Program-made: the position numbers and the translations under genes
Notes under the pieces: generated by a model
What the model saw: only the letters and a program-made list of their open reading frames with translations
What the model was told of the DNA's origin: nothing
Databases searched by the model: none
In this document: piece by piece, positions 2,196-64,000 of the stretch
Layout: each line of letters opens with the position of its first letter
How positions within the stretch are numbered: position 1 is the stretch's first letter
Source of the DNA: Sipunculus nudus
Taxonomy: Eukaryota > Annelida > Sipuncula > Golfingiida > Sipunculidae
Direction: 5' to 3'
Length of the DNA stretch: 64,000 nt
Assembly: GCA_026874595.1 (NCBI GenBank)
Contig: CM049314.1
Location: forward strand, 51,071,812-51,135,811

Positions 2196-2834
2196 GAGAT
2201 ATGAGTGATTTTATCCAACGGCAGACAGACGGACGCTGTGCAAAAATGGTTGCAGGTGACGCCACCAGTTTTGCGTATGGTAAAGAGCTATGTGAGGAAG
2301 ATATGTCAAACCTGTCCGGAGATATAAGCATGAATGTCTGCAGCTTGAACGTGAATGTAGGTGGCGCCACCTGTCATAAAATCAAGAAAGCTATCCAGGA
2401 TGTATAAGCATGCCAAATTTCAGGTGAATTAGTCAAACCATTGCGAAGATATGAGTGATTTTAACCCAAGGCAGACGAATAGATGGACACTGTGCAAACA
2501 TGGTTGCAGGTGGCGCCACCATTTGTGTGTGTGTGTTATAAAGCTATCCAAGGGCTACATTTGTACAACAATTTTTTCCTGATCGATCAAACGGTTCCCG
2601 AGATATGTGGGTTTATGTGGTGAAACAGGCGCACAAATGGACGTTGGGCAGAGAGGAAAGGTCAGAGGTCAACGCAAATTGGTTAGGCACCAGTTCACAT
2701 GTGACCCGATAATTGGTGTTTCGTAAAAAATCCGTCCAGTAGTCTCAGAGGAGTTCTCCGGAAACGAACGCGGCGGCGGCGGCGGAACCCGTTCAAAAAC
2801 ATAGTACCCGCAAAACTTCGTTTTGGCGGATACA
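2190..2834 (-). mobile_element. Helentron-like element, family A, copy 1 (3'-truncated)
   Basis: Read on the minus strand it starts TGTATCCGCC at 2834 with the family A 5' hairpin (GTATCCGC-CAAAAC pairing with GTTTTGCGGATAC), followed by a CCGCCGCCG run and a direct repeat of AGGTCA (2659-2671 on the plus strand). Two internal units contain the palindrome GGTGGCGCCACC (2360-2371 and 2509-2520). The family's 3' hairpin and CTAG end are missing; similarity fades near 2190. No transposase or helicase is encoded. Confidence 0.75.
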
Positions 2835-3117
2835 ATAATGGTAATCCTAATATATGGTTTACATGTGTTAGGTATTGGACTGTATAATGCAAAATGTAGG
2901 AAACTGTGTATTATAAAATGAACCTTTCCAGTTGTAATGTATGTATAGTGTCCGCATACCATTAGCGTTTAGGAAGATGGCTGTATGGGTAAATTAAACA
3001 ATATATTTAGAACTGATGTCAACAGTAGAGAGACAAAATGAACATGAAGTTGATAAGATTGGGATTGGGGGGGGGGGGCTCGAGAGGTTCGTGCGACCCC
3101 CCACCCCCACCCCCCCT
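2835..3117. other. Unassigned intergenic stretch with G and C runs
   Basis: No gene or known repeat was recognised here. A G run (about 3067-3079) and C runs (about 3098-3117) lie close together and could pair with each other; they abut the stop codon of the possible exon that follows on the minus strand. Confidence 0.6.
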
Positions 3118-3276
3118 TTAATTTTCAGCAATGGTTCCAGCAATGAGTCCTAAGATTTCTCCTTGCCAATTCATATAAACTACGAGAAGAATGATGTAGC
3201 GAAAGTATCCCTGGTATGTGCTTTCTGCCAAAAGCTGTCTATGGACGATTGCATTTAGGGCATGTCCTAAAGAACT
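3118..3276 (-). CDS. Possible terminal coding exon (52 residues), function unknown
   Basis: On the minus strand a long pyrimidine tract (TTTCTTTCTTCTTGTCAG, ending at 3277) looks like a good 3' splice site. It is followed by 52 codons and a TAA at 3120-3118. The predicted peptide has a hydrophobic stretch (YFRYIILLVVYMNW, about residues 24-37) and then a small-residue GLIAG motif near its end, so it could be a membrane segment of a multi-pass protein. The hydrophobic segment followed by a GxxxG-type motif faintly recalls the C-terminal part of Ctr-type copper transporters, but a polar QGE in the last helix argues against this. No upstream exons were recognised. An open frame of this length is common by chance. 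Confidence 0.2.
   Translation of the reverse strand, partial: SSLGHALNAIVHRQLLAESTYQGYFRYIILLVVYMNWQGEILGLIAGTIAEN

Positions 3277-3685: not shown

Positions 3686-3752
<67 letters not shown>

Positions 3753-5301: not shown

Positions 5302-5304
<3 letters not shown>
3277..5304. other. AT-rich non-coding stretch
   Basis: No gene, transposon end or tandem array was recognised apart from the TA microsatellite listed separately. Short open frames here lack protein-like composition. A small perfect palindrome CGGCTAAGCCG lies near 3510. Confidence 0.6.
3689..3751. repeat. (TA)n microsatellite
   Basis: About 31 uninterrupted AT dinucleotides. It gives rise to an Ile-Tyr repeat in one frame that is not a gene. 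Confidence 0.98.

Positions 5305-5356
<52 letters not shown>
5305..5356. repeat. (TA)n microsatellite
   Basis: About 26 uninterrupted AT dinucleotides. Confidence 0.98.
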
Positions 5357-10096: not shown

Positions 10097-10762
10097 TATG
10101 CCCCCGCCACAAAGTGGCCGGGGCATATTGTTTTACCCATGACTGTCCTTCCGTCATTCCGAAATCAAACAGTTGTACGGACTTTCTTTCGCAGTGCCTG
10201 CAGATATTGGCCTGATTTTTGGTGTGTAGGTAGATAATGACCAGATATAGATCAAGTTCGCTTTTCGTCCTGGTTGACCTACTTTTGACCATTTAACAGC
10301 TCCTTAACTTAGAAAATTTCATGAAAAATAGAAATTTTCATGACAAATACACATGTACAGACTTTTTTTTTGCAGTGCCTGCAGATATTGGTCTGATTTT
10401 TGGTTTGTGGACAGATAATGACCAGTTACAGATCGAGTTTGCGTTTCGTCACCATTGACCTACTTTTGATTGTTTTACGGCTCCTAAACATAGAAAATTG
10501 CATGAAAAATATAAATTTTCATGACAAATGTACATGTACAGCCGTTTTTAGCCTTCAGCTCATAGGCTGATGGGCTATTGTCGTCACCCAAGCTGTCCGT
10601 CTGTCCGTCCGTCTGACGTCCGTCCGTCCGCGTCGGTTAACTTTTACCTTGTGAGCAGGATTTCTCTAAAAGGATTCATGGTTGGAATTTTATTTCGTCA
10701 GTGAAGATGTGTATCGATAAAATCTCAGTCAAGTTCGAAGATGGGTGATCTTGACCCATTTG

Positions 10763-13700
10763 TAGCTCAGCTGACTGAAAGTCATCTGAGCTATAGCGAT
10801 CACTCTTTGTCCGTCGTCTGTCTGTCTGTCCGTTAACCAGGCACAAATCATAACCGCTAGAACTGGAATCTTCTTACTTGACATCCTGGGAGGTCCATGA
10901 AAAATCTCCTTGGAAACCAGAAATTAGGTCTCTGTTACCCATATCCTTCGAGCTATGGGGCCCCAAAGTACCCCCCAGAAAAGTCCAAAATTTCATACAA
11001 AAACTTCAATATCTCATTAAATACTTGACTGATGGTCATGATTTTTGGCATACATATTGATCATGAGAGGTTCCATCAGTTCCTGAAGACTGGTGGCGCC
11101 ACCAGTATTTTTCGATTTTTTACGAATTTTTTTCTCTATTTTTGAGACCTTTAAAAATGTGAACATGTATCTGTTAACAAGGCACAAATCGTAATGACTG
11201 GACTTAGAATCTTCATTCTCGCAGACTGAGAGACCTATGAAAAGTCTCCGTGGAAATTAGAAATTAGATCTCTGTTACCCATATCCTTCCAGCTATGGGG
11301 CCCCAAACTACCCCCCAGAAAAGTAAAAAATTTCAAACAAAAACTTCAATATCTCATTAAATACTTGACTGATGGTCATGATTTTTGTCATACATATTGA
11401 TCATGAGAGGTTCCATCAGTTCCTGGAGACTGGTGGCGCCACCTGTATCGTTCAATTTTTTACGAATTTTTTTCTCTATTTTTGAGACCTTTCAAAACGT
11501 AAACATCTGTTAACATGGCACAAATCGTAAAGACTGGACCTAGAATCTTCATTCTTGACACACTGAGAGACCTATGAAAAGTCTCCATGGAAACCAGGAA
11601 TTAGGTCTCTGTTACCCATATTCTTCCAGCTATGGAGCCCCAAAGAACCCCCAAGAAAAGTAAAAAATTTCATACAAAAACTTCAATATCTCATTAACTA
11701 CTTGACTGATGGTCATGATTTGTGGCATAACTATTGATCATGAGATGTGTCATCACTTCCTGCAGACTGGTGGTGCCACCTTTATTGTTCGATTTTTTAC
11801 GATTTTTTCCTCTATTTTTGAGATCTTTAAGGATGCTGTCATCTGTTAGCATGGCACAAATCGTAACGACTGGACCTAGAATCTTCATTCTTGACACACT
11901 GAGAGGTCCATGAAAAATATCCTTGGAAACCAGAAATTAGGTCTCTGTTAACCATATCCTTCGAGCTATGGGGCCCCAAAGTACCCCCCCCCCCCGAGTA
12001 GTCAAAAATTTCATACAAAAACTTCAATATCTCAAAAAACTACATCACTGATGGTCATGATTTTTGGCATACATATTGATTATGAAATGTTCCATCAGTT
12101 CCTGCAGACTTGTGGCGCCACCTGTATTGTTTGATTTTTTACGATTTTTTCCTCTATTTTGAGACCTTTAAGGATGCTTTCATCTGTTAACGTGGCACAA
12201 ATCATAACGACTGGACCTAGAATCTTCATTCTCAACACACTAGAAGACCTATGAAAAGTCTCCATGGAAACCAGAAATTAGGTCTCTGTTACCCATATCC
12301 TTCGAGCTATGGAGCCCTAAAGTACCCCCAAGAAAAGTAAAAAATTTCATACAAAAACTTCAATATCTCATTAACTATTTGAATGATGGTCATGATTTGT
12401 GGCATAACTATTGATCATGAGATGTGTCATCTGTTCCTGCAGACTGGTGGCGCCACCTGTATCGTTCGATTTTTTACGATTTTTTCCTCTATTTTTGAGA
12501 CCTTTAAGGATGCTGTCATCTGTTAGCATGGCACAAATAGTAACGACTGGACCTAGAATCTTCATTCTCAACACACTAGAAGACCTATGAAAAGTCTCCA
12601 TGGAAACCAGAAATTAGGTCTCTTTTACCCATATCCTTCGAGCTATGGGGCCCCAAAGTACCCCCACAGAGTAGTCAAAAATTTCATACAAAAACTTCAA
12701 TATCTCAATAACTACATCACTGATGGTCATGATTTTTGGCATACATATTGATTATGAGATGTTCCATCAGTTCCTGCAGACTGGTGGCGCCACCTATGTT
12801 ATCTATCAAGAGGGTACAAATTGCAACAACTGGACCTAAAAACTTCATTCTTGTCATGCAAGGAGGCCCATGAAGAGTACCTGTGGAAACTTGAAACTAG
12901 GTCTCTGTTACCCATATCCTTCAAGCTATAGGACTCTGAAGTATCCCTCAGAATAATGGACAATTTGATACAAAAGCTGAAGTATCTGAACAACAAATAC
13001 GGAGATCATCATGATTCTTTGCATGGATATTGACCATTAAGTGTTTTTAGCTCAGCTGACTGTAAGTCATCTGAAGTATCCCTCAGAATAATGGACAATT
13101 TGATACCAAAGCTCAAGTATCTAAACAACTATTGCAGTGATCACCATGATTCTTTGCATGGATATTGATCATGGAATGTGTCATCAGTTTCTGCAGTATG
13201 GTGGCGCCACCTGTATTTTTTTTATTTTTACGAATTTTTTTCTCTATTTTTGAGACCTCATAAGATGCAGTCATCTGTTAACATGGCACAAATCGTAACA
13301 ACTGGACCTAGAATCTTCTCTCTTGACATGCTGAGAGGCCCATGAAAAGTTTCCTTAAAAACTTGAAATTAGGTCTCTGTTACCCATAACCTCTGAGCTA
13401 TGGGGCTCCGAAGTACCCCCCAGAATAATGGAAAATTTGATACAAAAGCTCAAGTATCTAAACAATTATTATATTGATCACCATGATTCTTTGCATGGAT
13501 ATTGATCATGAAATGTTTCATCAGTTTCTGCATTCTGGTGGCGCCACCTGTATTTTTTCAATTTTTAGCTCAGCTGACTGAAAGTCATCTGAGCTGTAGG
13601 GATCACCTTTTGTCCGTCGTCCGTCTGGCCATCCAGGCGTCTGTCTGTTAACAGGGCACAAATCGTAACCGCTAGACCGGGAATCTTCTTACTTGAAATA

Positions 13701-14596
13701 CTGGGAGGTCTATGGAAATTCTCCTTGTAAACCTGAAATTAGGTCACTGTGACCTATATTCTTCGAGCTATGGGGTTCTGAAGTACCCCCCAGAATAATG
13801 CAAAATTTAATACAAAAGCTCAAGTATCTGAACAACTAGTGCATTAATCACCATGATTCTTTGCATGGATATTGATCATGGAGTGTTTCATCAATTTCTG
13901 GAGATTGGTGGCGCCACCTATATTTTCTTTATTTTTTACGATTTTTTTTCTCTACTTTTGTGATCTTTAAACAATTGGTCATCTGTAAACAGGGCACAAA
14001 TCATAATGACTGGACCTAGAATCTTCTGTCCTCACCTCCAGGGAAGCCCATAAAAGGTCTACATGGAAACCCGAAATAAGGTCCCTGTTACCCATACTCT
14101 GTGAGCTATGGGGCTCTGAAGTACACCCCAGAATAAAGATTTGGTCATATATTAACAGGGCACAAATTATAATGACTTGACCTAGAATCTCCTTTCTTGA
14201 TATGCTGGGAGGCCCCTGAAAAGTCTCCTTGTGCACCTGAAATTACATCTCTGTTACCCATATCCTTCATCCTATGCGGCTTTGAAATTCCCCCCAGAAT
14301 AAACATTTGGATTTGTTAACAGGGCACAAATCATAATAACTGGACCTAGAATTTTATTTTTTAACATGCTGGGAGACCCCTGATAAGTCATCTTGTAAAC
14401 CTTGAAAATAGGTGTCTGTTACCCATATCCTTCATGCTACAGAGCTCCATAGTACCCCAATGAATATTGGATGATTTTATACAAAAGGTCAAGTTTGGAA
14501 AAAGTATTTCATTCAAATTTGACATTCAGATGATAAAATTACTTTTGTCAATGTCTTCCTGGTCAGCTGAGCGTCATGACCCCTGGGTCACTTGTT
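10763..14596 (+). mobile_element. Helentron-like element, family B1, with 338-bp internal satellite
   Basis: The 5' terminal hairpin pairs AGCTCAGCTGACT (from 10764) with AGTCATCTGAGCT. The inverse subterminal motif TCAGCTGAGC is at 14563-14572, followed by the 3' hairpin TGACCCCTGGGTCA (14577-14590) and CTTGTT. Between them is a tandem array of about 338-bp units. Two more 5' ends of the same family occur inside, at about 13049 (partial) and 13567, but only one 3' end, so this is a compound of several copies. No coding capacity. Confidence 0.8.
10840..13920 (+). repeat. 338-bp satellite inside family B1, about 9 units
   Basis: The palindrome GGTGGCGCCACC or a one- or two-base variant occurs at 11092, 11432, about 11772, about 12110, 12446, 12783, 13200, 13537 and 13907. 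Spacing is 336-340 bp for most; the larger gaps (417 and 370 bp) coincide with the extra 5' ends at 13049 and 13567. Each unit also carries GGACCTAGAATCTTC and TCTCTGTTACCCATAT. The pattern indicates expansion within a transposon, a known habit of non-autonomous Helitron-group elements. Confidence 0.9.
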
Positions 14597-17500
14597 AGCT
14601 ATAGTCGTGGTCCTTTGTCCGTCGTCAGTCTGGCCGTACGGCCGTCCGGCCGTGAACAGGGCACGTTTTAGATGTCCCCAAAATCTCCTACCATACTGAA
14701 AAATTGGGTCATTAGGACTCCGTTTTCCATAAAAAAGCCATTGTAACAATTCAAGGCTGCCTAATGTCAAAACCACTGATCTGTTTTTGATCATATTTAG
14801 TATTCATATTCTTCCATACATTTTCTATGAACATACCAAAAATTAGGTCAGTATTAGGTATTATTTTGAAGTTATGGGCCCAAATATAATGCAATTTTTA
14901 AAAAATCAGGAAATATATTTACTCACCTAACATGAGAATTACTGAAGCTGGAGACTTTTTTTCAGGAATATAACTTTATTTAATCAAGATTCAATGGTTT
15001 ACCCAAAATCAGATATGAATTTTGCAAATTTTTCAAGTTATTAGCATAAATAAAAAATCAATACCTTAAATTTTGTCCAACTTTGGCAATGGCACATTTA
15101 TTCCCAGTAAGCACTGTTGATTTAATTTTCACAGCATATATACATAAGGATTTAATCTTTTAAAATCTGAAATTTCAAAGGAATTGTCTAAAAAAGAGTA
15201 GCTTTTATTCAAGTTTTCATACACCATGTCAAGTGTTGTTTACATCTAGCCCACCTAGTAACACAGCCTTCACTTGCATTATGTTACCCACCCCAGGCAG
15301 CTTGCCTTGGCCCAGCTTGGCCACTACTAGCAGACTTCCACTCTGCCCTGCACTCCCCCCCCCCCCCCCCCGGATGGTGTATTAACTAGATGAATGTTAT
15401 AATTTTCTGTATTTTCTTTTATTCTTGGCTATGCTACATTTTAGATTTTGAATTGTACCACCAGGGTTACAATGATTAAAGTGCACATTTAATTGTGTCC
15501 ACAAAGTGGTGTATTGCTATGAAAGTGTGGATGTTTATCAGATAAGTAAATTCTTACTTCAGAAGAGTAAAAACTTCACCAGATGTGAAATTGACTATTA
15601 ATTCCAGTAATAAACTAGAATACGGGTAGTCGACAAGCGACTACTTGTATCCGCCTAAATCAGAGTGGAACGGGTGAAGTGTTGCATATTAGCATGGATG
15701 TCTGCAGCCAAATTGTGTATGTAGGTTGCGCTACCTACGAAAAATCCAGAAAGCTCTATACACATGCAAAACTTTGGCCCAATCGGTCAAACAGTTCCCA
15801 AGATATGAGCTTGGATATCTGCTGCATAAACTAGAATGCAGGTGGCGCCACCTGTCATAAAATCAAGAGAGCTGTCGGGGATGTATAAACTTGCAAAATT
15901 TTAGGCAGATATGTCAAACCACTGCCGAGATATGAGTGATTTTATCCCATGGCAGACAAACAGATGGGAGCTGTGCAAACATGGCTGCAGGTGGCGCCAC
16001 CAGTTTTGCATATGATAAAGAGCTATGTGAGATTTATACACATGCAAAATTTTGGCCCAATTGGTCAAACGGTTCGCTAGATATGAGCTTGGATGTCTGC
16101 AGCGTAAACTTGATTGTAGGTGGCGCCACCTGTCATAAAATCAGAAAAGCTATCCAGGATGTATAAGCATGCCGAATTTCAGGTGAATTAGTCAAACCAC
16201 TGCAGAGATATGAGTGATTTTAACCCAAGGCAGACGAACAGATGGACGCTGTGCAAACATGGTTGCAGGTGGTGCCACCATTTTCAGTGTATGTAATAAA
16301 GCTCTCCAAGGGCTACATTTGAGCAAAAAAATTTTCCTGATCAGTCAAACAGTTCCTGAGATATGAGCTTGGATGTCTGCAGCGTAAACCTGAATGTAGG
16401 TGGCGCCACCTGTCATAAAATCAGAAAAGCTATCCAGGATGTATACGCATGCCAAATTTCAGGTGAATTAGTCAAGTCACTGCAGAGATATGAGTGATTT
16501 TAACCCAAGGCAGACAAACAGATGGACACTGTGCAAACATGGTTGCAGGTAGCGCCACCATTTTTGGTGTATGTTATAAAGCTCTCCAAGGGCTACATTT
16601 GTGCAAAAGAATTTTCCTGATCGGTCAAACGGTTCCCGAGATATGAGCTTGGATGTCTGCAGCGTAAACGTGAATGTAGGTGGCGCCACCTGTCATAAAA
16701 TCAGAAAAGCTATCCAGGATGTATACGCATGCCCAATTTCAGGTGAATTAGTCAAGTCACTGCAGAGATATGAGTGATTTTAACCCAAGGCAGACGAACA
16801 GATGGACACTGTGCAAACATGGTTGCAGGTGGCGCCACCATTTTTGGTGTATGTTATAAAGCTCTCTGAGGGCTACATTTGTGCAAAAAAATTTTCCTGA
16901 TCGGTCAAACGGTTCCCGAGATATGTGGGTTTATGTGTGGAAACAGACGCACAAACGGACGCAGAGCGCAAAGGAAAGGTCAGAGGTCAAAACAAAATCG
17001 GGGCGCAGCAGTTCACATGTGACCCGAACATAATCCCGGGTTTCGGAAAATTCCGCCCAGCGGTTACGGAGGAGTTCTCCGGACACCTACGCGGCGGCGG
17101 CGGCGGCAGCGTGCAGCTGAAAACATAGTATCCGCAAAACTCTGTTTTGGCGGATACAATTATAGCCGAGATAGTAATTAGCACAATGATTTTGTTTGCC
17201 CCTCATTCAACCAACAGTGTGTATATTTTATTTGAAAAGATGTTTTTATTTTATCAAATTTACTGAATCTTTTATTTTATTTCAGTGAATAAAATAAAGC
17301 ATGTACTGAAAACTCCAATATGCAAAACTTTTAAATAGTGATTCAAGGAATAGTCTTGTAGATGCCATGTTGTGGCATTAGTTTCTTTTAATTTCAGTTC
17401 AAACATTTGTGATTTAAAAATAATAAAATATATGTGTATGCATAATATGACCCAATATGAGCTACACTCTGGATAAATAATGATTGCAACTTAGAAATTT

Positions 17501-17853: not shown

Positions 17854-18982
17854 CTACATTTTAGAGCTGATTATAGAAAAATACTCAGAAGCTTATATCT
17901 CAGGAACCATTGTGTGGATTTTCGCAAAACTTACTATGATCATTGGGACTGGTGGTCTGTACTTGCTGCACAATTTTGGTGGCTCCACCCGCAATTTCTG
18001 ATTTTTTAATCAATTTTTATCGGATTTTTCAATTTTGGCCTTGTGAGCGGGATATCTCTAAAAGGATTCACTGTTGGAATTTTATTTCATCAGTGAAGAT
18101 GTATATCAACAAAATCTTGGTCAAGTGCAAAGATGGGTGACCTTGACCTATTTTTCTTTGTTTTAGGGCTGATTATACAAAAACACTCAGAAGCTTATAT
18201 CTCAGGAACCATTGTGTGGATTTTCACAAAACTTACTATGATCATTTGGAATGATGGTCTGTGCGTGATGCACAATTTTGGTGGCACCACCTACAATTTC
18301 TGATTTTTTAATGAATTTTTATCAGATTTTTCATTTTTGGCCTTTTGTGCAGGATATCTCCAAAGGCATTCAACACAGGAACTTAATTTCTTCAGTGCTA
18401 ATGCATGATATTTACAAAATTTTGGTCAAGTTCAAAGATGGGTGATCTTGACCTACTTTTCAAGGTCACAGAGCTTAGTATAGAAAAAAACTTAGGAGCT
18501 TATTTCTCAGGAAGCATTTGGTGGATTGTTATGAAACATGGTACATACCTCTCCAATTTAAATTTATAACTGATTATCAGCTTTTGCTAATATTCTAGTT
18601 TTGCAATGCAATGCTTACAGATACTAGCCTAATGTTTGGTCTGTTGGCGCATAATGACCACTTACAGATCAAGTTCGCGTTTCATCCCAGTTGACTTATT
18701 TTTGACCATATGACGGATCCTGAACATAGAAAATTTCATGAAAGACTGAAATTTTTATGAAAATGCACGTATGGACTTTTTTTCACAATGCCTGCAGATA
18801 CTGGCCTGATTTTTGGTGTGTTGCTTGATAATGACCCGTTACAGATCGAGTTTGCATTTTGCCCTTGTTGACCTACTTTTGACCATATGACACCTCCTGA
18901 ACTTAAAAATTTTTTACAAAATTTAACAAATGTTTCTAATTTGCCCCAGGCGGGGGCATTCGTGTCGTTCCGACACATTTAG

Positions 18983-23253: not shown

Positions 23254-26200
23254 TCGCTCAGCTGACTGTAAGTCATCTGAGCTATAGCAATCACCCTATG
23301 TCTGTTGTCTGTCTGGCCGTCCGGCCATCTGTCCGTTAACAGGGCACACATCCTAACCGCTGGATCTGGAATCTTCTTCCTTGACATCCAGGGAGGTCAA
23401 TGAAAATTCTCCTTGAAAACCTTGAATTAGGTCTCTGTTACCCATATTCTTCGAGCTATGGGGCTCCGAAGTACCCCTCAGAATAATGGAAAATTTGATA
23501 CAAAAGCTCAAGTATCTGAACAAATAATGCATTGATCACCATGGTTCTTTGCATGGATATTGATCAAGGAGTGTTTCATCAGTTTCTGCAGACTGGTGGC
23601 GCTACCTGTATTTTTAGCTCAGCTGACTATAAGTCATCTGAGCTATAGTCGTGGTCCATTGTCCGTCTGTCCGTCCGTCTGTCCGTAGATGTGGCACGTT
23701 TTGAAACCGTAAGACCTAGGAATCCTAAATTCGGCATAGTGTTAGATGTCCCCAAGATCTCCTACCAAGCCAAAAACTGGGTCTTTGTGACTTTGTTCCT
23801 TTGAGAAATTAAGGAAAAACCTCAATTTTTTATTAAAAACCTATTTTCACACTTCAGGGCTGCCTAATATCAAAACCACTCATCTGTTTTTCCTCATATT
23901 TACCATAAATATTGGTAACAAAATGCATTTTGTAAAAAATTGGTAAAGAAATTTGATCACTTAACACAAAACTTGTTAAAGCTATGGACTTTTTTTCAAG
24001 TAATATAACTTTAATTAATCAAAATTAAATTGTATACCCAAAATTAGATCAAAATCTTTTAAATTTTTAAAAATATTAACAAAAATAAAAAATTGGTACC
24101 TTAAATTTTGCCTAACTTTGACCATGGCACGTTTTTTTCCTGTAAGTACTGTGGATTTAATTTTCTCAGCATGTTGTTGTTAGCATTTTGTCTGTTAACA
24201 CCAAAAATTTGAAACCAGTTGATCAAAAACTGTAGATTTTATTCAAGTTTTCAAGCACCATGTAACATATTGTTTACATCAGGCTAGTGTTATGCAGTGT
24301 GCAAGAGCTCAGCTCCCCAGCTTAAGCTCTAAGTTCCTAAAATTTGGCATACAATTAGATGTCTCCAAAATTCCCTACCATGCCAAGAATTTGGTCACTA
24401 GGACTTAATACCTTTGAGATATTAATGAAAAACTTCATTTTTCAATTAAAAACCCATTGTTACACTTCAATACTGCCTAATATCAAAACCACTGATCTGA
24501 CTTTAATCATATATAATATACATGTTTTTCTATACATTCTCTGTGCACATGCCAGAAATGATGTCAGTATTGCGTAATTGTTTTAAGTTATGGGCCCAAA
24601 CATAATGCACTTTGTAAAAAATCAAGAAATATATTTACTCCCTTAACAAGGGGCTAGCTGAAGCTAGAGATTTTTTGTCAGGGATGTAACATTATTTAAT
24701 CAAGATTCAATTGAATACCCAAAATTAGTTCTGAATTTTTAAAATTTTATAAGTTATTAGTATAAATAAAAAATTAGTACCTTAAATTTTGCCCAACTTT
24801 GACCATTTCACTTTTGTTTCATGTGAGCTCTGTTTATATAATTTTCATATCATGCACACATAAGGATTTCAGCGTTTTAGTTTAGAAAGCTGAAAGAAAT
24901 TGGCCAAAAATTGTAGCTTTTATTTATGTTTTTATGAGACCATGTCAGACCTTGGCTCTCTCCAGCCCTTCTTGAGTCACCTGTATGTTGACCTTGTTGA
25001 ACTTTTAGCAAATTATGCACACTTGAGGCGAGGCATATACTTGGCAGCAAGGCAGGTTATGGCCAGCCACAGTTGATCCAGGTGTCCAACCCAACTCATC
25101 TAGTAGTTTTAACCAACAACACAACAATGAACAATAAATTAAATATATTTTTATTGGTTTTTAATAACAAATTAAAGAAAAATAGAAAAGGAATATGTTA
25201 GTTTATAATAACAGGAAATTAACTTGCAGTTACTGATGATATAAGAATCTTGTATCTATGGATAGAATGTCACCTATTCCAAATAACACCATGCAGTCAC
25301 CTATGGTATTTTTCAGTTCAATTTTAATAATAAAAAAGTAAATCATATTATTCATTACTAATCATTAGGGATCATATGAAGGAAATTAATGATAGACAAA
25401 GATGCGGTTGATAATATTAATCTAGATTCCCACTGTGTCTAGTGTGTACATTGATGTGAAATTAGTCCAAAATGAGTATATTATATTTATTTTTTTTTTT
25501 AATATAAATAAAAGCCATAAAACCAGGTAATTATGATCATTATTTAAATGTGTGAATTTTCTATATTCTGCATTCTCAACATCATTGTTTGGTGAAAACT
25601 GAATAAATACCAGACATGGTGCGAATACTTTGCAATTGTATTTAAATACAAATATGAATATGTACTCCATTATAAAATTTCTTGCATAAAGAATGGGAAT
25701 TCAGGTAAAAATGAAAGTATATGAATACCAGTGCAAATACTTTCAAAATGTATTCATGAATGCATTCATGAATATATTCTTTAATATTATTTTAATAATC
25801 ATTTCAGTTATATTTCATTTTAAAAAATCATACGATTCTCCTATTATTTAAAAAAAAAAATATTTGGGACAATATTTGTAATTTTTTTTAATAAATAGTT
25901 AAACTCTTATATTATACGTTCTGCTTATAAGTTATATGGCCAAGTCAAAATCTGTGTGACAATAGTACTCCGTTTGTTAATAAAATAAATGAAATCAATC
26001 CTCTTTCCTGTCTCCAAAGGTACTATCAAAATCCTACATAAGCTCAACAAAAACAACTCATAATACAGCTTATATTTATTACCACACAAAACCAGCATGT
26101 GCCTCATTTCTAAATCATATTTTTTTATCATATTTAACAGCTGAGCGCCGTGACCCATAGGTCCCTTGTTTATAAAACTTAATGTAAGTTCATTATGTAA

Positions 26201-40231: not shown

Positions 40232-40702
40232 TTGGCTCTGTATGTATATGCAGAAGTGTTGTAAATCCCACCATGCCCCCCCTCCCCCCCCCCCCCCCCC
40301 CCCCCGCCATTGATTCCTTTGCACCTGTGCACTGAGACATTAGTTTTTATTGCAAATGTGTAAAATTTATTTAATTTAAAAATAAATTGGATAAGAAAAA
40401 AATTAAGATCTAATTTAAACACATTCTTGCCTCAGGAGAATGGAACATAAAGTGATAAGCTCTGTCTGTCCATTGTCTCTTTGTTATCATTAAATTTATA
40501 TTAATTATGAAATTTTTCCTATAAGCACTGTTAAAATAACTCTGTACTGTATGTGTATGGATTTAAGCAACTTATATATTCAGTTATGTAATATTGCAGA
40601 TGTTAAACTTTAAAACAGTTTGATATGTAATAAAAAAAAAAGAAATAATTGAAACTTCATATATTATCAGCTCTGTCTGCTGTAACCAGTCTGTCTGTCA
40701 TT

Positions 40703-41117: not shown

Positions 41118-42432
41118 AATTTTGCGGATACTATGTTTTCAGTCGGACGCCGACCCTGCCGCCATCGCCGCATAGATTTCCGGAGAACTCCTCCATAACC
41201 ACTGGGCAGAATTTTTTAAAATTCAGAATTATGATCAGTCACATGTGAACTGCTGTGCCCTCATTTTTGGTTGACCTCTGACCTTTCCTCTCTGCCCAGC
41301 GTCCATTTGTGCGTCTGTTTCCACACATAAACCCACATATCTTGGGAACGGTTTGACTGATAAGGCTAAAGATTTTGCACAAATGTAGCCCTTGGAAAGC
41401 TTTATAACATACACTAAAAATGGTGGCACCACCTGCAACCATTTTTGCACAGCGTCCATCTGTTCATCTGCCTTGGGATAAAAACACTCATATCTCTGCA
41501 TTGGTTGGACTTATCCAACTGTAATTTTGCATGTGTATACATCCTTGACAGCTTTCTTGATTTTATGACAGGTGGTGCCACCTACATTCAAATTGACGCT
41601 GCATACATCTAAGCTCATATTTCAGGAACCATTTGACCGATTGGGCAAAAATTTTGCATTTACATAGATCTCACATAGCTCTTTATCATACGTAAATGCG
41701 GTGGCACCGCCTGCAATCATTTTTGCACAGCATGCATCTGTTTGTTTGACGTGGGATAAAATCACATATCTGCCTAAAATTTTGCAGGATTATACATCTT
41801 GGATAGCTTTCATGATTTTATGGCAGGTGGCGCTGCCTACATTCAAATTTACGCTGCAGACATCCAAGCTCATATCTCAGGAACCATTTGACCGATTGGG
41901 AAAAATTTTGCATGTTTATAGATCTCACATAGCTCTTTATCTTACACAAAACTGGTGGCGCCACCTGCAATCATTTTTGCACAGCATACGTCTGTTTGCT
42001 GTGGGATAAAATCACTCTTTTATATCAGTACTGGGATATGTCAGGACTGGTTTGACATATCCCCCTTGAAATTTTACATGTGTATAGATCTCGCATATCT
42101 CTGAATCATAAACAAAATTGGTGGCGCCACCTGCCACCATTTTTGCACGGTGTCCTTCTGTTTGTCTGCCGTGCGCTAAAATCACTCATATCTCAGGAGT
42201 CGTTTGACTTATCTGCCTAAAATTTTGCATGTTTATACATCTTGGATAGCTTTCTGGATTTTTTGGCAGGTGGCACCACCTACAATTATGTATATGCTGC
42301 AGACATTCAGGCTTATATCTCAGGACTGGTTTGACATATCCCCCTGAAATTTGCATGTGTATAGATCTCACATAACTTTTAATCATACACTAAATTACAC
42401 TGTCGTCGCTTGTTGACTACCCATATTCTTAG
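41118..42432 (+). mobile_element. Helentron-like element, family A, copy 3, slightly 5'-truncated
   Basis: The outer arm of the 5' hairpin is missing; it starts at TTTTGCGGATACTATG. TGACCTCTGACCT at 41272-41284. Tandem units with the palindrome exact at 41954-41965 and 42120-42131 and decayed elsewhere (about 41430, 41570, 41700, 41825, 42267). The 3' end keeps GTCGCTTGTTGACTAC and CATATTCTTAG. Confidence 0.8.
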
Positions 42433-49550: not shown

Positions 49551-49629
49551 GTAAATCTGTTGTCAAGTCACCAGATAAGCATTTATTTTAGATCCCTTTT
49601 TATGGCTGCACATCTACTAATAGCTGCAC

Positions 49630-50460
49630 TCTGAGTGCAAGGTCCCCTTTAGGAGCTCAGAGATAATCTCAGAAACAATCGAATGGTTCTAGTTCGGTGA
49701 TTTTTGGTGGAGTTACAGGAAGTTGAACTTAGTCATCTCTCCAAAAAAGCATATTAAAATTTCAATTTCAGAAACGGCTGGAGCTATCATTAACAAATTT
49801 TATGCCAGTGTTGGTCACATGAGTCATATCTGAAATTGAGGTCTTGGTGGTTCCACCTGTATCGGCCTTTCTTGTACAGCATCATCAGTGCCTGTATCAC
49901 ACTGAGGGCTACAAAAAATTCTTCTCTGAAACCATATGGCTAAATTGTTTAATATCACACAGAAATGATCCTAGGTAGTGCCTTCTGAAATTTGTTCAAT
50001 GGTCACTGTTCAGTGAATTTTGGCTGAGTTATAGGAAGCTGAATTTAGTCATATGCCATTACAGCCCATTTTTGCTCAGTGGCTACAAAGATCTTCTTCT
50101 CAAAAACCACTGGGCCAAATACTGAAATCTCACACATTAATTATCCTCAGATTCTGATTATTCAGCTTTGTTCAAATGGTTTTGGTTCAGGGCTTTTTGG
50201 CTGTGTTACGGGAAGCTGAACTTAGCTAGTTTGCTGTATCTTCCTATATGAGTTATAAACCTGCAAAATGTTTTTCGACTGACACCACTGAAGCGATTTT
50301 TTAAAAATATTTTACAAGAATCATCCCCACAATAATTCTTATAATATTTGTCTTATTGGTTCCACATGTATGATTTTGGTTGAATTATTGAGCTTGAATG
50401 GAGTCATTTTACCATATATGTTAGCTGTGTGATGCTGTCACATCTAGCCTGACACTAGTT
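49630..50460 (+). mobile_element. Family F repeat, copy 2
   Basis: Shares AAACGGCTGGAGCTATCAT and ATGCCAGTGTTGGTCACAT with copy 1. Three to four diverged units with GGTTC(T/A)(A/G)GTTC and TTGG(C/T)(T/G)GAGTTA(C/T)AGGA. It has a decayed palindrome GGTGGTTCCACC near 49853. Just upstream, GCACTCTGAGTGC (about 49627-49639) is a perfect small hairpin. Ends are unclear. Confidence 0.5.
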
Positions 50461-50683
50461 TAGCAGCATCTATTACATCATGCCACTGGACATTTAGATT
50501 TCAGGTTTTCTGTGGTTAATATTGATAAGAATGTTTTTTAAAAGCTTTTAAAAAATTAGATTAATGATTTAAATTATTCATCAAACCAGGCAGTGTTAAA
50601 ATCACAGATATGCAGCTCTTTGTGGCTATATAAAGATGGCTCTACATGGAATATAAATGATTGGTATCCATACTTAGATTAAT
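50461..50683. other. Short unassigned stretch
   Basis: AT-rich, no gene. Confidence 0.6.
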
Positions 50684-52591
50684 TGTATCCCCAGACAAAG
50701 TCGGGATACTATGGTTTCACGACGGTCCCGCTGCCGCCGCCGCAGAAAAACCTTGTGAACGGGATAACTCAAATAATATTTCACTGATCTTTTTCAAACT
50801 CTACATTTGTATAGATATAGGTAAGGTGACAAAGCCTATTTAAAATGGGGTCATGACCTATGCTAGGAGAGTGACCTTGACCTTAAATAGGTCCATTTTT
50901 GCTGAAAATAACACAAAATCTTAAATATCTCAAGTAAGCTTGCATGGACTGGTCCAAAAATCAAGGTGACCAAAGATCTTGGATAGCCTTGTGATATACC
51001 GGAAACTGGTGGCGCCGCCTATTATCCTTTTCTTGTTTTTACGCCTTTTAATACCCCCATAATTGCCACTTGACAGTACTGTGAGCATTATAAGTCAAAA
51101 ACTAATGGACAGATTTCTTTCATATTATGCACATGTAGAGAGATGGGTTATGGGATGAGGTCTATTTACATTTGGGTCATGACCTTTACCATGAGAGTGG
51201 CCTTGACCTTTAATGTGTCCATATTTGGTGAAAATCACACACCTCTTATGATATCTCCAGTGTTGATAGCCATATGGATTTCAAACGTGACTTATGTATG
51301 GCCCACCACTAAAGTAAGAACCCTATAGGTTCTAGGGACATGAGATCAAAGGTCAAGGTCACTGGACTCCCATCTTAAAAGATACTGTGGATGCATTTTT
51401 AGCCAAACTTTCATCCCAGGTCTTCCATCTTGAATATATAGCTCACTTGCCAATAGTGGATGATCCCTATCAGTTTTGGGGTCACAAGGTCAAAGGTCAA
51501 GGCCACAGGAGCTATCTGTCAAAAAATTAGTTTCTGGATGATAATTCCTGCTTTTATTTATGTATTGATTTCAAACTTGACTTGTATATGTCCCATTGAA
51601 AAAGCAAGACTCCATTTGATTTTGGGGTCATGAGGTCAAAGGTCAAGGTCACAGGACACAACTTAAAAAAGATTGTGGATGCATTTTCAGCCAAACATTT
51701 CATCTCAGACCTTTCATCTTGCACATATAGTTCATCTGCCAATAGAGGAAGACCCCTATCAATTTTGAGTTCACAAGGTCAAAGGTGAAGGTCACAGGAT
51801 CCATCTGTCCAAAAATTAGTTTCTGGATGATAATTCCTGCTTTTATGGATGAATGGATTTCAAACTTGACTTGTATATGTCCCATTGGAAAAGCAAGACC
51901 CAAATTGATTTTGGGGTCATGAGGTCAAAGGTCAAGGTCAGAGGACACATCTTTAAAAAGATTGTGGATACATTTTCAGCCAAACATTTCATCTAAGACA
52001 TTTCATCTTGCACATACAGTTCCCCTGCAAATAGAGGAAGACGCCTGTCAATTGTGAGGTCACAAGGTCAAAGGTGAAGGTCACAGGAGCCATCTGTCCA
52101 AAAATTAGTTCCAGAGATGATAATTCAAGCTTGGATTAATATATGGATTTCAAACCTGACTTATATATGGCCCATCAATAATCTAGACCTCTATTGATTT
52201 ATATATAAAAGTGGATGATCAATATCAATTTTGGGGTCACAAGGTCAAAGGTCAAGGCCACAGGAGCCATTACTGGATGATAATTCCCTTTGCTAAGAGA
52301 GTGACCTTGGACTTGAATAGGTCCATTTCTGCTGAAAATTACACAAACTCTTAAATATCTCAATATTGTTTGCATGGATTGGTCCCAAAATTAAGGTGAC
52401 AGAAGATCTTGGATAGCCTTGTGATGTACCAAAAGTCAAGGCCACAGGACCAACATCTTCAAAAAGATTGTGGATTGATAGATGGAAGAAACAATAATTG
52501 CTTGCCAAGTGTCAGTATATGCTGCTGGGGGGGGGGGGGGCCGACTATGTCTGGAAATACTCTGGCACCTGGGGTGCCAAGAAATGTCTAG
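50684..52591 (+). mobile_element. Helentron-like element, family D, copy 2, full length
   Basis: 5' hairpin TGTATCCCCAGAC with GTCGGGATAC; CCGCTGCCGCCGCCG near 50729; 3' subterminal inverse GTCTGGAAATAC (52549-52560), perfect hairpin GGCACCTGGGGTGCC (52564-52578), AAGAAATGT and CTAG (52588-52591), then T. The 5' part has the palindrome once (decayed, GGTGGCGCCGCC at about 51007). The 3' part is 270-bp units carrying AGGTCAAAGGTCAAGGTCA (51633-51651, 51922-51940) and variants. A G run of about 14 precedes the 3' end. No protein. Confidence 0.9.
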
Positions 52592-52596
52592 TTAAT

Positions 52597-54042
52597 TGTA
52601 TCTGCCAAAACGAAGTTTTGCGGATACTATGTTTTTGACCGGGTTCCGCCGCCGTGTTCGTTTCCGGAGAACTCCTCTGAAACTACTTGACGGATTTTTC
52701 CGAAACTTATACAGATTTTTCGGGTCACATGTGAACTGGTGCCTTACCAAGTGACCTTGACCTCTGACCTTTCCTCTCTGCCCAGCGTCCGTTTTCCACA
52801 CATAAACCCTCATATCTCGGGAACCCTGAAAGACCAGGGGAAAAAATTTACACAAATGTAGCCCTGGGATAGCTTTATAACATACACAAAAAAGGTGGCG
52901 CCACCTGCAACCATGTTTGCACAATGTCCATCTGTTCATCTGCCTTGGGTTAAAATCACTCATATCTCTGCAGTGGTTTGACTAATTCACCTAAAATTCT
53001 GCATGTGTATACATCCTAGATAGCTTTCTGGATTTTATAACAGGTGGTGCCACCTACATTCACGTTAACGCTGCAGACATCCAAGCTCATATCTCGGGAA
53101 CCATTTGACCGATCAGATAAAAAAATTTTACACAAATGTAGCCCTTGGATAGCTTTATAACATACACAAAAAATGGTGGCGCCACCTGCAGGCATTTTTG
53201 CACAGTGTCCATCTGTTTGTCTGCCTTAGGTTAAAATCACTCATATCTCTGCAGTGGTTTGACTAATTCACCTAAAATTTGGCATGCGTATACATCCTAG
53301 ATAGCTTTCTGGATTTTATGGCAGGTGGTGCCACCTACATTTACGTTCACGCTGCAGACATCCAAGCTCATATCTCAGGAACCGGACAACCAATCAGGAA
53401 AAAAATTTTACACAAATGTAGCCCTTGGATAGCTTTATAACATACACCAAAAATGATGGCGCCACCTGCAGGCATTTTTGCACAGTGTCCATCTGTTTGT
53501 CTGCCTTAGGTTAAAATCAATCATATCTCTGCAGTAGTTTGACTAATTCACCTGAAATTCGGCATGCGTATACATCCTGGATAGCTTTCTTGATTTTTTT
53601 ACAGGTGGCGCCACCTACCTTCACGTTCACGCTGCAGACATCCAAGCTCATATCTCAGGAACTGTTCGACCAATCCGGAAAAAAATATACACAAATGTCG
53701 CCCTTGGATAGCTTTATAACATACACAAAAATGATGGCCCCACTTGCAGCCATTTTTGCACTGCGTCCATCAGTTTTTCTGCCTTGGGTTAAAATCACTC
53801 ATATCTCTGCAGTGGTTTGACTTTTCCACATGAAATTTTGCATGTGTATACATCTTGGATAGTTTCTCGTTCAAATAACAGGTGGCGCCACCTACAATCA
53901 TGTTTATGTGGCAGAGATCCATTCTAATATGTAACACATGTAACTCTATTTCCCCTTGCCACTCAATCCATGCCTCACTTCACCCGTCCTTCTCTGATTT
54001 TTGCGGATACACGTAGTCGCTTGTCGACTACCCGTATTCTAG
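52597..54042 (+). mobile_element. Helentron-like element, family A, copy 4, full length
   Basis: 5' end TGTATCTGCC at 52597, five bases after the end of the D element, with hairpin; TGACCTTGACC merging into TGACCTCTGACCT (52758-52770); tandem units with exact palindromes at 52894, 53175, 53604 and 53881 and decayed ones between; 3' end GCGGATAC, hairpin GTAGTCGCTTGTCGACTAC, CCGTATT and CTAG (54039-54042), followed by TT. This copy and 15615-17158 define the family. Confidence 0.9.
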
Positions 54043-60402: not shown

Positions 60403-63400
60403 AGCTCAGCTGACTATAAGTCATCTGAGCTATAGTCGTGGTCCTTTGTCCTTCGGCTGTCCGTCCGTCCGTCTGTTAAACTGGCACGTTTTGAAACCAT
60501 AAGACATAGGAATCCAAAATTCGGCATAATGTTAGATGTCCCCAAGATCTCCAACCAAGCCGAAAACTGGGTCTTTGCAACTTCGATCCTTTGAGAAATT
60601 TAGGAAAAACCTCAATTTTTTATTAAAAACCTATTTTCACACTTCAGGACTGCCTAATATCAAAACCACTCATCTGTTTTTCCTCATATTTACCATAAAT
60701 ATTCCTCTATATAGTTCCTATGTACATGTCAGAATTTAGGTCTGTATTATGTAATTTAAAAAAGTTATGTGCCCAAACAATGCATTTTGTAAAAAATCAG
60801 GAAAGATATTTGATCACTTAACACAAAACATGTTAAAGCTAAGGACTTTTTTCCAGTTATGTAACTTTAATTAATAAAAATTAAATTTTATACCCAAAAT
60901 TAGATCAAAATCTTTAAAACTTTTTTTTAATATTAGGAAAAAAAAATTGATACCTTAAATTTTGCCCAACTTTGACCATGGCACATTTTTTCCCTGTAAC
61001 TGCTGTGGATTTAATTTTCACAGCATGTTTTTGTTAGCATTTCATCTGTTAACACCAAGAATTTGAAATCAGTTGATCAAAAACTGTAGATTTTATTCAA
61101 GTTTTCAAGCACCATGTCACATATTATTTACATCAAGCTAGTGTTATGCAGTTTGCTAGAGCTCAGCATACAGTTAGATGTCTCCAAAATACCCTACCAT
61201 GCCATGAATTTGGTCACTAGGACTTAATTCCTTTTAGATATTAATGAAAAACTTCATTTTTCCATTAAAAACCCATGGTTACAATTTAACGTGGCAGGAC
61301 TGGTCCCCCACCTGACCTGACTTTGTTTCAGTTTTTCCTTTGCATTGAACAATCTAATGCTTTAATACCCCCTAAAGTATACATTTTCTGAAAGGTAAGA
61401 AAATTCTCCATAGTTTGGTGATAATAAACTTTGTTTCTGAGGAACAGGTTTGAATTTGTAAGAATTTTAATTTAATTTTAATATTTATAAAAAAAAAACC
61501 CTTTATTCCAGCACAACTGAAGCAGATACAGAAAATCTTCTTAAATAAATTTGAGAATTTAGATAATAATCCCCATTTTTTTTTTTGTTTTGTGAGATAA
61601 GTTTAAAAATTATGATTTTACAGAGTATTTAATTTTGAAATCTTCACAAATCATTTAATTTTTTACTTTTACCTTAATAAAATCCTTCAAATTTAGTATA
61701 GGCGTAAAATAAAAAAAAACACTTTTTAGAAGACATATTTACTATTACATATATCAAAGATGGTATGTTTCTGACAAGTACTTACTGAGAAATAACGCTC
61801 TAAAGATAAGGTGTTCAGGTGAAATGATGTTTCGAGAAAATGGCCAAAAACTATATTCGTAGAGATCATTTGTCCTACACACGTAACTAACCACAACTAC
61901 ATGTTTGACAGTCACATGAATTTGGTCAAGACGGTGGTTCTTATCAAACCATGCTATAATAACATGGATTAATTGACTATTTTGCTTTAAAAATGTATTA
62001 AAACAATAAAAGTTTGACCTGTCTCACCAGCAAACTGTCAAACACCACGTGCATGGACTTCAGTAGGCGGAGCTTACAGTTTTGGCCGAGTGCCAAGGTG
62101 TGCTGAGCACCCGACAACCGGGACCCGTGGCTGAACAGATGCATAGTCGGGCCTAATAGGTAACCGCGTGTTTACACAGGAACAAGGGGATCTGTGGCCA
62201 TTCAAGGAGAACGAAGATTGATTTACTTTTCACGGTTTACATACATTATAGGTATTTGGGAGTTGACAATAGAGACGAGTTGATAACAATCATACAAATC
62301 TTGCATACACCTACAAAAGATATATGTGAAATCTGGACTTATTGTTTATTGGAGGTTTGAATAGGAAGAAGATGGTTTGTAACATTCATACATCATGCAC
62401 ACACATTCAAGTCACAGAAGGAGCCCGATTATCTTATAAGAAGGTTTATTTACATGGAATCTATAAATGGCAACAAATTAAACAATCAACGTAGTAATAA
62501 CTGTTTGTATAGTAATTAGTGTCCAATAGTAATTAGTCACTAGATCCTTCTGGTTGAATGCACATATCCGAAGGTGCATCTAAATGAAATGGTATGTTGT
62601 TACAACAGCGGCTGACAATAGCGTGTTTAGTTGATAACACTGCCAAAGTCGATTGGGGTCGGCCTCCGGTTTTCCTTCACGCGTAAACATAGAGATGCCG
62701 TCATCTGACGATTCATCGTTGCTGGCCATCAGTTTGATCACGGAAGTAGGTTCGGCCCGCTGAGACTTCTTGATAATATTCAAATGCTGCAGTTTATCAA
62801 GTGACATTCGGGATTTGTGTCGTCGGCCTGTCGTAGTTTTGTCTGGTATTGGCGTAATATTTATTTGTTGCGGTGTTGACAGTATGAATATCATAGACGT
62901 TATAGTTGGGATATGAAGCAGCTTATTGTAAAGTTATTTTACGTATCTGTCGATAGGCTCAGGATATAGCAGAAATAACATGATGTCAAGTGAAAATTTG
63001 TGTTTCGGCGTAACATAGACAGAAAGGCCAATGACACTAACAGATCATTCACAAGGACGGATTTGTTTGCACACTAATTAGTTGTATGCTCAGCTAATTA
63101 GATTGGGCTATCAAACGTCAACCGTCAGTTCTTGCCACCTCTTGTACGGAGTTACTTGGCCCATGCATTAATTAAACACTTGCACCTCGCAATTGGCTGA
63201 ATGACCCAGGTGAGGGCAGGGGGCAGAGTGATTGACAGGCCTGTGGCAGGGCTGGAGTTAGTTTACAAACACCCTGTCAACATATCTTGGTGTTTACTGA
63301 ATAGAAATAACCCTTTTCCACAAAATGTAACCGGTGACCCAAAATGGGCTCAGCTGCATTAGATCTGCCCAGTATTCAATATTACGTAAACCTTTTATTG

Positions 63401-63554
63401 AAAAAACACAAATTTTTTTGGATTTTGACCAGTCCTGCTACCTTAAGACTGCCTTATATCAAAACCACTGATCTGACTTTGATCATATATAATATACATA
63501 TTTTTCTATACAATTGCTATGCACATGCTAGAAATGATGTCAGTATTGCGTAAT
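60403..63554 (+). mobile_element. Helentron-like element, family B2, copy d, split by a TTAA element
   Basis: 5' hairpin from 60403, GTCCGTCC at about 60460-60475, B2 body to 61289, then a 2.15-kb insertion, then B2 sequence resumes (GACTGCCTTATATCAAAACC at 63447) to the family A insertion at 63555. The 3' end is beyond the window. Confidence 0.85.
61290..63442. mobile_element. 2.15-kb element with TTAA target duplication (piggyBac-like)
   Basis: TTAA stands at 61286-61289 and 63443-63446, and the flanking B2 sequence is continuous once one TTAA is removed. Ends are CGTGGCAGGACTGGTC (61290-61305) and GACCAGTCCTGCTACC (63427-63442), a 16-bp inverted repeat with two mismatches. TTAA duplication is the hallmark of piggyBac-type transposition, although the usual CCC start is absent. 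No transposase is recognised; a minus-strand frame (62894-62580, 104 codons, with DESSDDG) has no assignable function. Confidence 0.7.
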
Positions 63555-64000
63555 TGTATCCGCCAAAACAGAGTTTTGCGGATACTATGTTTTCAGCTGC
63601 ATGCCGCCGCCGCCACCGCCGCCGCAGCCGCGGCGTAGGTGTCCGGAGAACTCCTCCTTAACCGCTGGGCGGAATTTTACGAAACCCAGGATTATGTTCG
63701 GGTCACATGTGAAATGCTGCGCCCCGATTTTGTTTTGACCTCTGACCTTTCCTCTGCGCTCTGCGTCCGTTTGTGCGTCTGTTTCCACACATAAACCCAC
63801 ATATCTCAGGAACCGTTCGACCGATAAGGAAAATTTTTTTGCACAAATGTAGCCCTTGGAGAGCTTTATAACATACACAAAAAATGGTGGCGCCACCTGC
63901 AATCATGTTTGCACAGCTCCTGTCTGTTTGTCTGCCATGGGATAAAATCACTCATATCTCGGCAGTGGTTTGACATATCTGCCTAAAATTTTGCAGGTTT
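63555..64000 (+). mobile_element. Helentron-like element, family A, copy 5, open at right edge
   Basis: 5' hairpin TGTATCCGCC...GCGGATAC, a long CCGCCGCC tract (63603-63635), TGACCTCTGACCT at 63736-63748 and GGTGGCGCCACC at 63896-63907. It sits in B2 copy d at TAAT/TG, matching the uninterrupted B2 sequence GCGTAATTGTTTTAAG at 24.57 kb, so the insertion point is between two Ts. Confidence 0.85.

Follow-up and report, generated by a model that had tools for sequence, protein, structure and literature searches.

Non-autonomous Helentrons (HINEs) with internal tandem repeats have been described in the oyster Crassostrea gigas, where the Cg_HINE elements have a 5' subterminal repeat with its inverted copy, a 3' subterminal repeat with a palindrome, in several cases GTCC-type microsatellites, and central tandem repeats mostly of 140-180 bp (PMC7492417). 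According to the portion of that article available to us, the oyster monomers CL1, CL2, CL10 and CL13 have two conserved segments in common with the otherwise dissimilar CL4 monomer (PMC7492417). Diverged monomers with two well-conserved motifs also characterize the BIV160/Cg170 satellites, which are found in several bivalves and include Cg170 arrays located inside Helitrons (PMC5139131, likewise available in part), and short internal arrays of ~160-bp repeats are described for Pearl and DTC84, the latter with a palindrome near the repeat junction that we liken to ours by its description (PMC5139131, PMC7492417). In this article, we analyze a 64,000-nucleotide stretch of the Sipunculus nudus genome (contig CM049314.1, positions 51,071,812 to 51,135,811; hereafter the window), where a perfect 12-bp palindrome, GGTGGCGCCACC, recurs within tandemly repeated internal monomers of elements with HINE-type ends.

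The families that carry the palindrome belong to one superfamily with a common ancestral monomer of ~150 bp and two conserved boxes. Box 1 consists of TATCTC and its neighbours, 79-85 bp upstream of the palindrome, and box 2 is an oriented word, GGTGGCGCCACCTRYA, with the palindrome as its core. These are likely the two conserved motifs published for bivalves and the oyster, to judge from a comparison of descriptions rather than letters. Unlike Cg_HINE, as far as the available text describes it, the present box 2 is shared by at least four related families (A, B, C and D), and probably by six, with F and one more diverged family, and two types of monomer alternate in B, C and D. The best reading of our results, to which we assign a probability of about 0.55, is that box 2 of these HINE-like internal monomers has been kept as a putative double-stranded protein-binding word that aids the propagation of the elements.

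In the window, GGTGGCGCCACC is found in 26 exact copies, compared with none in 100 dinucleotide shuffles, and at 50 sites when up to two mismatches are allowed (0.35 expected). The runner-up among the perfect 12-bp palindromes of the window, with low-complexity sequences excluded, is GACCCATGGGTC with 4 copies. Throughout the assembly (1,426,538,692 bases), the exact palindrome occurs 111,729 times, or ~78 per Mb, versus 14 occurrences of its reversed-letter control. The CpG-decayed centre GGTGGTGCCACC, counted on either strand, adds 22,806 + 22,877 copies (control 14 + 14), and the doubly changed centre GGTGGTACCACC is found 633 times (control 64). Family A has two sites per 280-bp period, with neighbouring sites mostly 126-166 bp apart, and B, C and D have one site per 301-342 bp. 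The initial annotation of this stretch had listed about 28 exact copies, which slightly overstates the count; its example coordinates (2360, 11092, 29500, 39525) are all correct, and its observation of one copy per internal repeat unit agrees with the site spacings. The recurrence it described is thus real, the claim that the carrier families are unrelated is not. Searches elsewhere gave no match in Rfam at gathering scores and none in a scan of prokaryote genomes; in the viral collections, the pattern combining box 1 and the palindrome produced one match, in a contig that by eye does not contain a monomer, and two other patterns produced none.

The relatedness of the families was assessed with the palindrome masked and one profile then built per family, E values being calculated for 64 kb. 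The masked profiles match other families, D included, in the register predicted by the palindrome; the best cross-family matches have E values of 0.16 for the A1 profile on B, 0.006 for A2 on C, 6.7e-5 for B on D, 1.8e-4 for C on A and 0.018 for D on B. Anchored alignments of five family consensuses over 79-86 bp show 52-64% identity. The score of each of the 10 pairs exceeds the mean of the shuffles and is attained in 0 to 72 of 2000 of them (the weakest pair is A1 with C). When 90-bp flanks with the palindrome masked are clustered by blastn, 45 of the 50 sites constitute one group, four D sites a second, and the site at 49846 stands alone. At 41 of 51 sites TATCT is found 79-85 bp upstream of the palindrome, where 0.04 per site would be expected over the 26-bp search interval, and in the genome TATCTC precedes the exact palindrome by 70-82 bases at 33,267 + 32,725 = 65,992 places, compared with 0 for the control. 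The register was also tested on chromosome C1 in 20 stretches picked for holding palindromes. There, 85 of 92 exact palindromes are accompanied, in register, by a score of at least 8 bits to the masked window profile; the remaining seven are by eye five F-like and two A-like, the best profile matches of the latter two being 21 and 150 bp out of register. Because the masked flanks match in register and the TATCT box lies upstream, we conclude that the families form one superfamily, and what the initial annotation regarded as unrelated families have one ancestral monomer in common.

Against this background of divergence, the palindrome is almost unchanged. The five consensuses agree at 11 of its 12 columns, the exception being one base of the central CpG, versus 18 of 117 other columns. 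When each family is given equal weight, agreement averages 0.64 outside the palindrome and reaches 0.84 in the most informative outside window, compared with 0.95 in the palindrome itself. Within families, the number of other windows as conserved as the palindrome is 0/118 in A1, 0/116 in B1 and 3/116 in A2. A second sample came from 25 stretches in other parts of the genome, in which the masked profile alone served to identify monomers. Its 184 monomers that cover the slot comprise 82 with the exact palindrome, 53 with one mismatch, 30 with two and 19 with three or more; the mean agreement is 0.917 in the slot, 0.677 outside, and 0.798 in the best outside window. The conserved sequence is not purely palindromic, the palindrome being the symmetric part of the oriented word GGTGGCGCCACCTRYA. 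The bases that follow it are conserved as TRYA (T at 49 of 51 sites, R at 49, Y at 51, A at 44), the preceding base is variable (T 35, A 15, C 1), T follows it in 181 of the 184 second-sample monomers, and the fully symmetric 14-mer AGGTGGCGCCACCT accounts for 41,719 of the 111,729 genome copies.

The changes were further divided into shared changes, present in two or more copies of a family, and private changes, present in one copy. Among the 50 window monomers, shared changes affect 2 of 500 letters at the ten non-CpG positions versus 523 of 5,912 letters in the flanks. Over all twelve columns there are 11 shared changes, compared with 30-85 in 95 other windows, none of which is as low. The central CpG decays freely, with 18 of 102 letters changed in the window versus 14 of 510 in the rest of the word.

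The positions of the carrier elements in the window are as follows, where v marks a variant palindrome.

2192..2626, minus strand: family A monomers with three sites (2255v, 2360 and 2509 exact); 5' hairpin at 2820-2833 (minus).
10545..10762, plus strand: family C 5' end with a hairpin at 10545, and a partner monomer without palindrome at 10650-10762.
10763..14598, plus strand: family B element or elements with a 5' hairpin at 10763-10793, more B 5' ends at 13044 and 13562, and a 3' subterminal repeat and hairpin at 14563-14590; palindrome sites at 11092, 11432, 11769v, 12111v, 12446, 12783, 13200, 13537 and 13907.
13741..13755, plus strand: AGGTCACTGTGACCT in the slot of a B partner monomer; AGGTCA is perfectly repeated here in inverted orientation, with 3 bp between the arms.
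15626..17159, minus strand: family A element with nine sites (15724v, 15841, 15990, 16119, 16268v, 16399, 16548v, 16679, 16828), the spacing beyond the first site alternating between 149 and 129-131.
17868..18600, plus strand: family C monomers with variant sites at 17978 and 18280; C 3' end at 18577-18600.
23485..23644, plus strand: family B monomer with a variant site at 23595, interrupted by a B 5' end at 23611.
27756..27854, plus strand: diverged monomer (masked-profile match, E 1.5e-4) that retains mainly the right half of the word (AATGATGCCACCTACA).
29170..30131, plus strand: family D element with both ends located; sites at 29500 (exact) and 29824 (variant).
30866..31366, plus strand: family B monomers with an exact site at 30976 and one at 31316 with one base deleted.
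34151..34690, plus strand: family B monomers with variant sites at 34261 and 34490; B 3' end at 34662-34689.
34914..35363, plus strand: family D, a monomer with an exact site at 35156 and two partner monomers with GGGTCATGACC.
35931..36086, plus strand: family B-like monomer with a variant site at 36033.
39196..40233, plus strand: family C element with both ends located; sites at 39525 (exact) and 39826 (variant); partner slots GGTGACCTTGACCTA, for example at 39381-39395.
41314..42420, plus strand: family A element with sites at 41422v, 41571v, 41700v, 41826v, 41954, 42120 and 42269v; 3' hairpin at 42405-42420.
49765..49861, plus strand: probable family F monomer with a variant site at 49846 (GGTGGTTCCACCTGTA); the masked profile matches it weakly (E 0.55), and the slot position predicted from this match is off by no more than one base.
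50683..52590, plus strand: family D element with a variant site at 51008, a partner slot GGTCATGACC at 51175, and a 3' subterminal repeat and hairpin at 52548-52590.
52596..54040, plus strand: family A element with both ends located (5' hairpin 52596-52627, 3' subterminal repeat and hairpin 54002-54031); sites at 52894, 53043v, 53175, 53324v, 53455v, 53604, 53733v (three mismatches) and 53881.
63554..64000, plus strand: family A element cut by the window end, with a 5' hairpin at 63554-63585 and an exact site at 63886.

Flanks that by eye resemble those of F also surround exact palindromes in three sampled stretches elsewhere in the genome.

The ends of these elements have the subterminal repeats and hairpins by which HINEs are recognized. 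A 5' subterminal repeat and its inverted copy, which form the 5' hairpin, are present in A, B, C and D, and all four families have a 3' subterminal repeat followed by a hairpin near the end (A at 54002-54031, B at 14563-14590 and 34662-34689, C at 40193-40233, D at 30089-30131 and 52548-52590). Central tandem repeats, which many but not all HINEs contain, are present as arrays in A, B and C, and in D they number about two units. With respect to GTCC-type microsatellites, which in the oyster elements are reported from the left part, a scan of the element ends gave one run, at 10809-10832 in B; the repeat listing shows further GTCC runs at 20200, 23661 and 31404, a shorter one is visible by eye at ~39245 after the C 5' end, and none was seen in A or D. 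The 5' ends of B and C start in TTTTT; insertion between T and T without target duplication would be expected of a HINE. Autonomous relatives probably exist in the genome, because it contains 143 matches to Helitron_like_N, 7 of them within open frames above 2,000 amino acids. The new B elements at 13562, 23611 and 31354 start in a T-run directly behind the palindrome of a pre-existing B monomer, an arrangement suggestive of nested insertion in which B elements use T-rich targets inside their own family.

The monomers without palindrome that alternate with palindrome monomers in B, C and D carry other words at a similar offset, ~83-84 bp from the start of a box-1-like segment, the segment being set by profile and by eye. 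The C partners have GGTGAYCTTGACC at the slot in 6 of 6 cases (one at 87) and the D partners have GGTCATGACC or GGATCATGACC in 7 of 7 (one at 74). Among the B partners, GGTCTCTGTTACC-like words were found by a loose pattern in 11 of 18, with 7 unmatched and two partial copies of 20 excluded. The perfect form of the B word, AGGTCACTGTGACCT at 13741, has 2,643 + 2,760 = 5,403 copies in the genome versus 13 + 12 for the control. We take these partner words to be arrangements of the nuclear-receptor half-site AGGTCA. Box 2 may therefore be a slot for DNA-binding proteins, in which the alternate monomers of B, C and D carry another AGGT...ACCT-like word at the same offset. In its widest form, this amounts to the tentative suggestion of an old rolling-circle superfamily with a modular, predicted protein-binding slot, filled either by the CpG palindrome GGTGGCGCCACCTRYA or by nuclear-receptor-like repeats (AGGTCACTGTGACCT, GGTGACCTTGACCTA, GGTCATGACC) and selected for element spread. 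The copies seeded in the genome number more than 150,000 of the palindrome type (111,729 exact plus 45,683 with one CpG change) and thousands of the partner type (5,403 of one form). A separate repeat with a period of ~289 at 51272-52260, also present at 35498 and 36489, is rich in GGTCAAAGGTCA and AGGTCAAGGTCA, nuclear-receptor-like direct repeats.

The mechanism that we favor for the retention of box 2 is that a sequence-specific protein, encoded by the host or by the element, would bind the box as double-stranded DNA. Binding would help the element propagate, for example through chromatin opening, germline transcription, or recruitment of replication or transposition proteins, so that box 2 would be retained in the lineages that multiply while the rest of the monomer drifts. 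The distribution of changes has a corresponding shape. Private changes at the ten non-CpG positions are merely halved relative to the flanks (12/500 vs 269/5,912; Fisher p 0.022, with related copies not independent), and over all twelve columns 4 of 95 other windows have as few private changes. Because shared non-CpG changes are nearly absent and private ones only halved, selection appears to act mainly on propagating lineages, which is the pattern expected from a constraint on lineages that multiply and much less on a copy once inserted. Of the interpretation offered in the initial annotation, the differential conservation of palindrome and flanks is borne out overall, if not within the small families C and D alone, the unrelatedness of the families is not, and protein binding is the predicted function that fits best.

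Several observations weigh against this mechanism. Binding of a protein to box 2 is predicted from sequence, and the reduction in private changes is by no more than half (p 0.022). The palindrome is unexceptional in C and D, each represented by 4 copies, where conservation as high is seen in 33 of 117 and 10 of 118 other windows, respectively. The 50 window monomers were mostly picked for a palindrome match, which favours conservation, and a residual bias applies to the second sample, since the presence of palindromes guided the choice of 20 of its 25 stretches and no monomer was found in the 5 that were located independently of palindromes. As to the slot, the idea of a common AGGT...ACCT form arose after looking at the sequences and is treated as a lead. 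Of 2000 shuffles, 45 attain the best score obtained for 15 anchored pairs of palindrome and partner monomers, slid controls frequently outscore the anchored alignments, and the masked profile finds only D partners (5 of 7, E 2e-4 to 1.9); full-length homology of the two monomer types is not supported by anchored alignment.

Common descent alone, from one ancestor or through homogenisation and with no function for the palindrome, would account for the homology of all tested families, for private changes that are merely halved, and for a palindrome that does not stand out in C and D taken alone. We regard it as unlikely, however. Between families, the flanks have diverged to 52-64% identity and the 12-mer has hardly changed; apart from its central CpG, the 12-mer has almost no shared changes; and an AT-rich genome with CpG decay should lose a G+C-rich word faster, not slower. 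The family-balanced agreement, the shared-change windows and the second sample all disfavor this explanation.

A second alternative is that the reverse-strand word TRYAGGTGGCGCCACC is an insulator site bound by CTCF, for which the consensus has an 11-bp core, YAGRKGGCRSY, and a full 14-mer, CCASYAGRKGGCRS. The core is matched at 35 of 51 sites, and all 42 matches in the window fall at these sites; however, a core match is by construction almost a part of the palindrome itself. The full CCASYAGRKGGCRS has 3-5 mismatches at 48 of 51 sites (1 mismatch at two sites and 2 at one), and a full CTCF site was rejected on these grounds. The CACC on the far side is equally conserved although the consensus does not require it. 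Orthologs of CTCF have been reported in molluscs, according to the available part of one article (PMC10658182), and a separate array at 1-1591 carries CCGCCAGGGGGAG-type words, yet a CTCF-type role for box 2 seems quite improbable. That array has a period of ~139, its CCGCCAGGGGGAG-type words resemble the vertebrate CTCF core, and it contains 7 plus-strand matches to CCRCCAGGRGGVR.

A fold in single-stranded DNA, one of the functions proposed in the initial annotation, would make the palindrome a hairpin or cruciform acting in rolling-circle replication or transposition. It would suit a perfectly symmetric core in a class of elements with terminal hairpins, a class listed as rolling-circle in the text available to us (PMC4067079). 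The variants point elsewhere: of 30 changed base pairs in the window, 28 have a change in one of the two bases, 2 have both bases changed to a non-pairing combination, and none is compensated, and in the second sample 155 are one-sided, 8 compensated (three of them at the central pair) and 2 neither, so that compensated changes make up 8/165. Folded on itself, the 12-mer would form a 4-bp stem at -1.3 kcal/mol, and for the 12-mer and three flanked versions 90, 72, 21 and 25 of 200 shuffles fold as well (z -0.2 to -1.1), so that none of the four folds significantly better than its shuffles. In addition, conservation extends to one side only (TRYA). The one-sided changes and the weak fold therefore favor reading box 2 as double-stranded DNA, and a role as a strand fold is quite unlikely. 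Neither the stable fold nor the pattern of compensatory changes that a hairpin element would have was observed.

We consider it very unlikely that the palindrome is a recombination or array-junction signal that guides monomer exchange and array breaks, a possibility also raised in the initial annotation. Precedents exist in the clam satellite phBglII400, whose junctions fall at palindromes (in 13 of 16 cases at a 12-bp one), and in DTC84, with its conserved palindrome near the repeat junction (PMC5139131); in the present window, by eye, one change of B array at 12795 lies directly after a palindrome. However, the grouping of BIV160/Cg170 junctions near conserved blocks is without statistical support in the part of that article available to us (PMC5139131), and the B 5' ends at 13562, 23611 and 31354 that follow a palindrome start in T-runs, T-rich sequence being the usual Helentron target according to the available text (PMC4067079). 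A coding remnant was rejected, by eye only, from the spacings of B sites (340, 337, 342, 335 and 337), which differ by amounts not all divisible by three.

The orientation of the elements appears uniform in some regions and for some families. On C1, among the matches listed, 43 arrays between 0.14 and 1.54 Mb fall into 5 orientation runs versus 17.4 expected, with minus orientation at 0.14-1.08 Mb, plus at 1.10-1.48 and minus at 1.49-1.54; a lone plus match at 0.84 Mb, beside a minus F monomer, is probably due to chance. All 184 monomers of the C1 sample are on one strand. Among the matches listed, the B partner slots have the same orientation in 21 of 23 pairs 5-50 kb apart and not beyond 100 kb, and A 5' ends over 40 Mb show no orientation pattern (47 runs vs 49.9 expected). 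The bias possibly results from the local direction of replication or from insertion into oriented T-runs.

The window contains several other features. There are ~35 copies of a 57-bp unit at 47574-49556 with 93% matches, and arrays of a 28-bp unit (TACTAGGACAAACTCCGATC...) within 44331-45569, at 44331-44435 and, in what seems to be reverse-complement orientation, at 45292-45391 and 45509-45569. The open frames at 56655-57686 and 59416-60021 are possibly remains of one retroelement; the first has a SCAN match (E 1.5e-11) and weak, sub-cut-off zinc-knuckle matches, the second a weak, sub-cut-off integrase C-terminal match (E 2.4e-5). A reverse transcriptase fragment (RVT_1, E 1.6e-15) lies on the minus strand at 30323-30901; its open frame and the start of a B element overlap.

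As far as our searches of article text show, the oriented word, its copy number, its constraint relative to the flanks and the alternating slot are new. In that text the 12-mer was found only in an unrelated context, GGCGCCACC was not found together with satellite and mollusc, and AGGTGGCGC was not found together with CTCF. Mobile elements can multiply short regulatory-looking words across a genome. Truncated transposons can serve as factor-binding sites, according to the available part of one article (PMC12628747). The likeness of our case to transposon-borne transcription-factor sites is that a mobile element multiplies a regulatory-looking word, here known from sequence alone.

We know of no explanation for why the internal repeats of Helentrons are kept. 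Such satellite-like repeats are abundant in oysters, as described in the text available to us (PMC7492417). An oriented word that stays fixed while its monomer drifts turns the question of why arrays are kept into a concrete test, namely to find the protein. Binding by an element protein would explain the existence of the array. In the case of a host regulator, the elements would have spread a single regulatory word in very large numbers, and, should the modular slot hold true, they would provide a very large ready-made binding platform for a host regulator.

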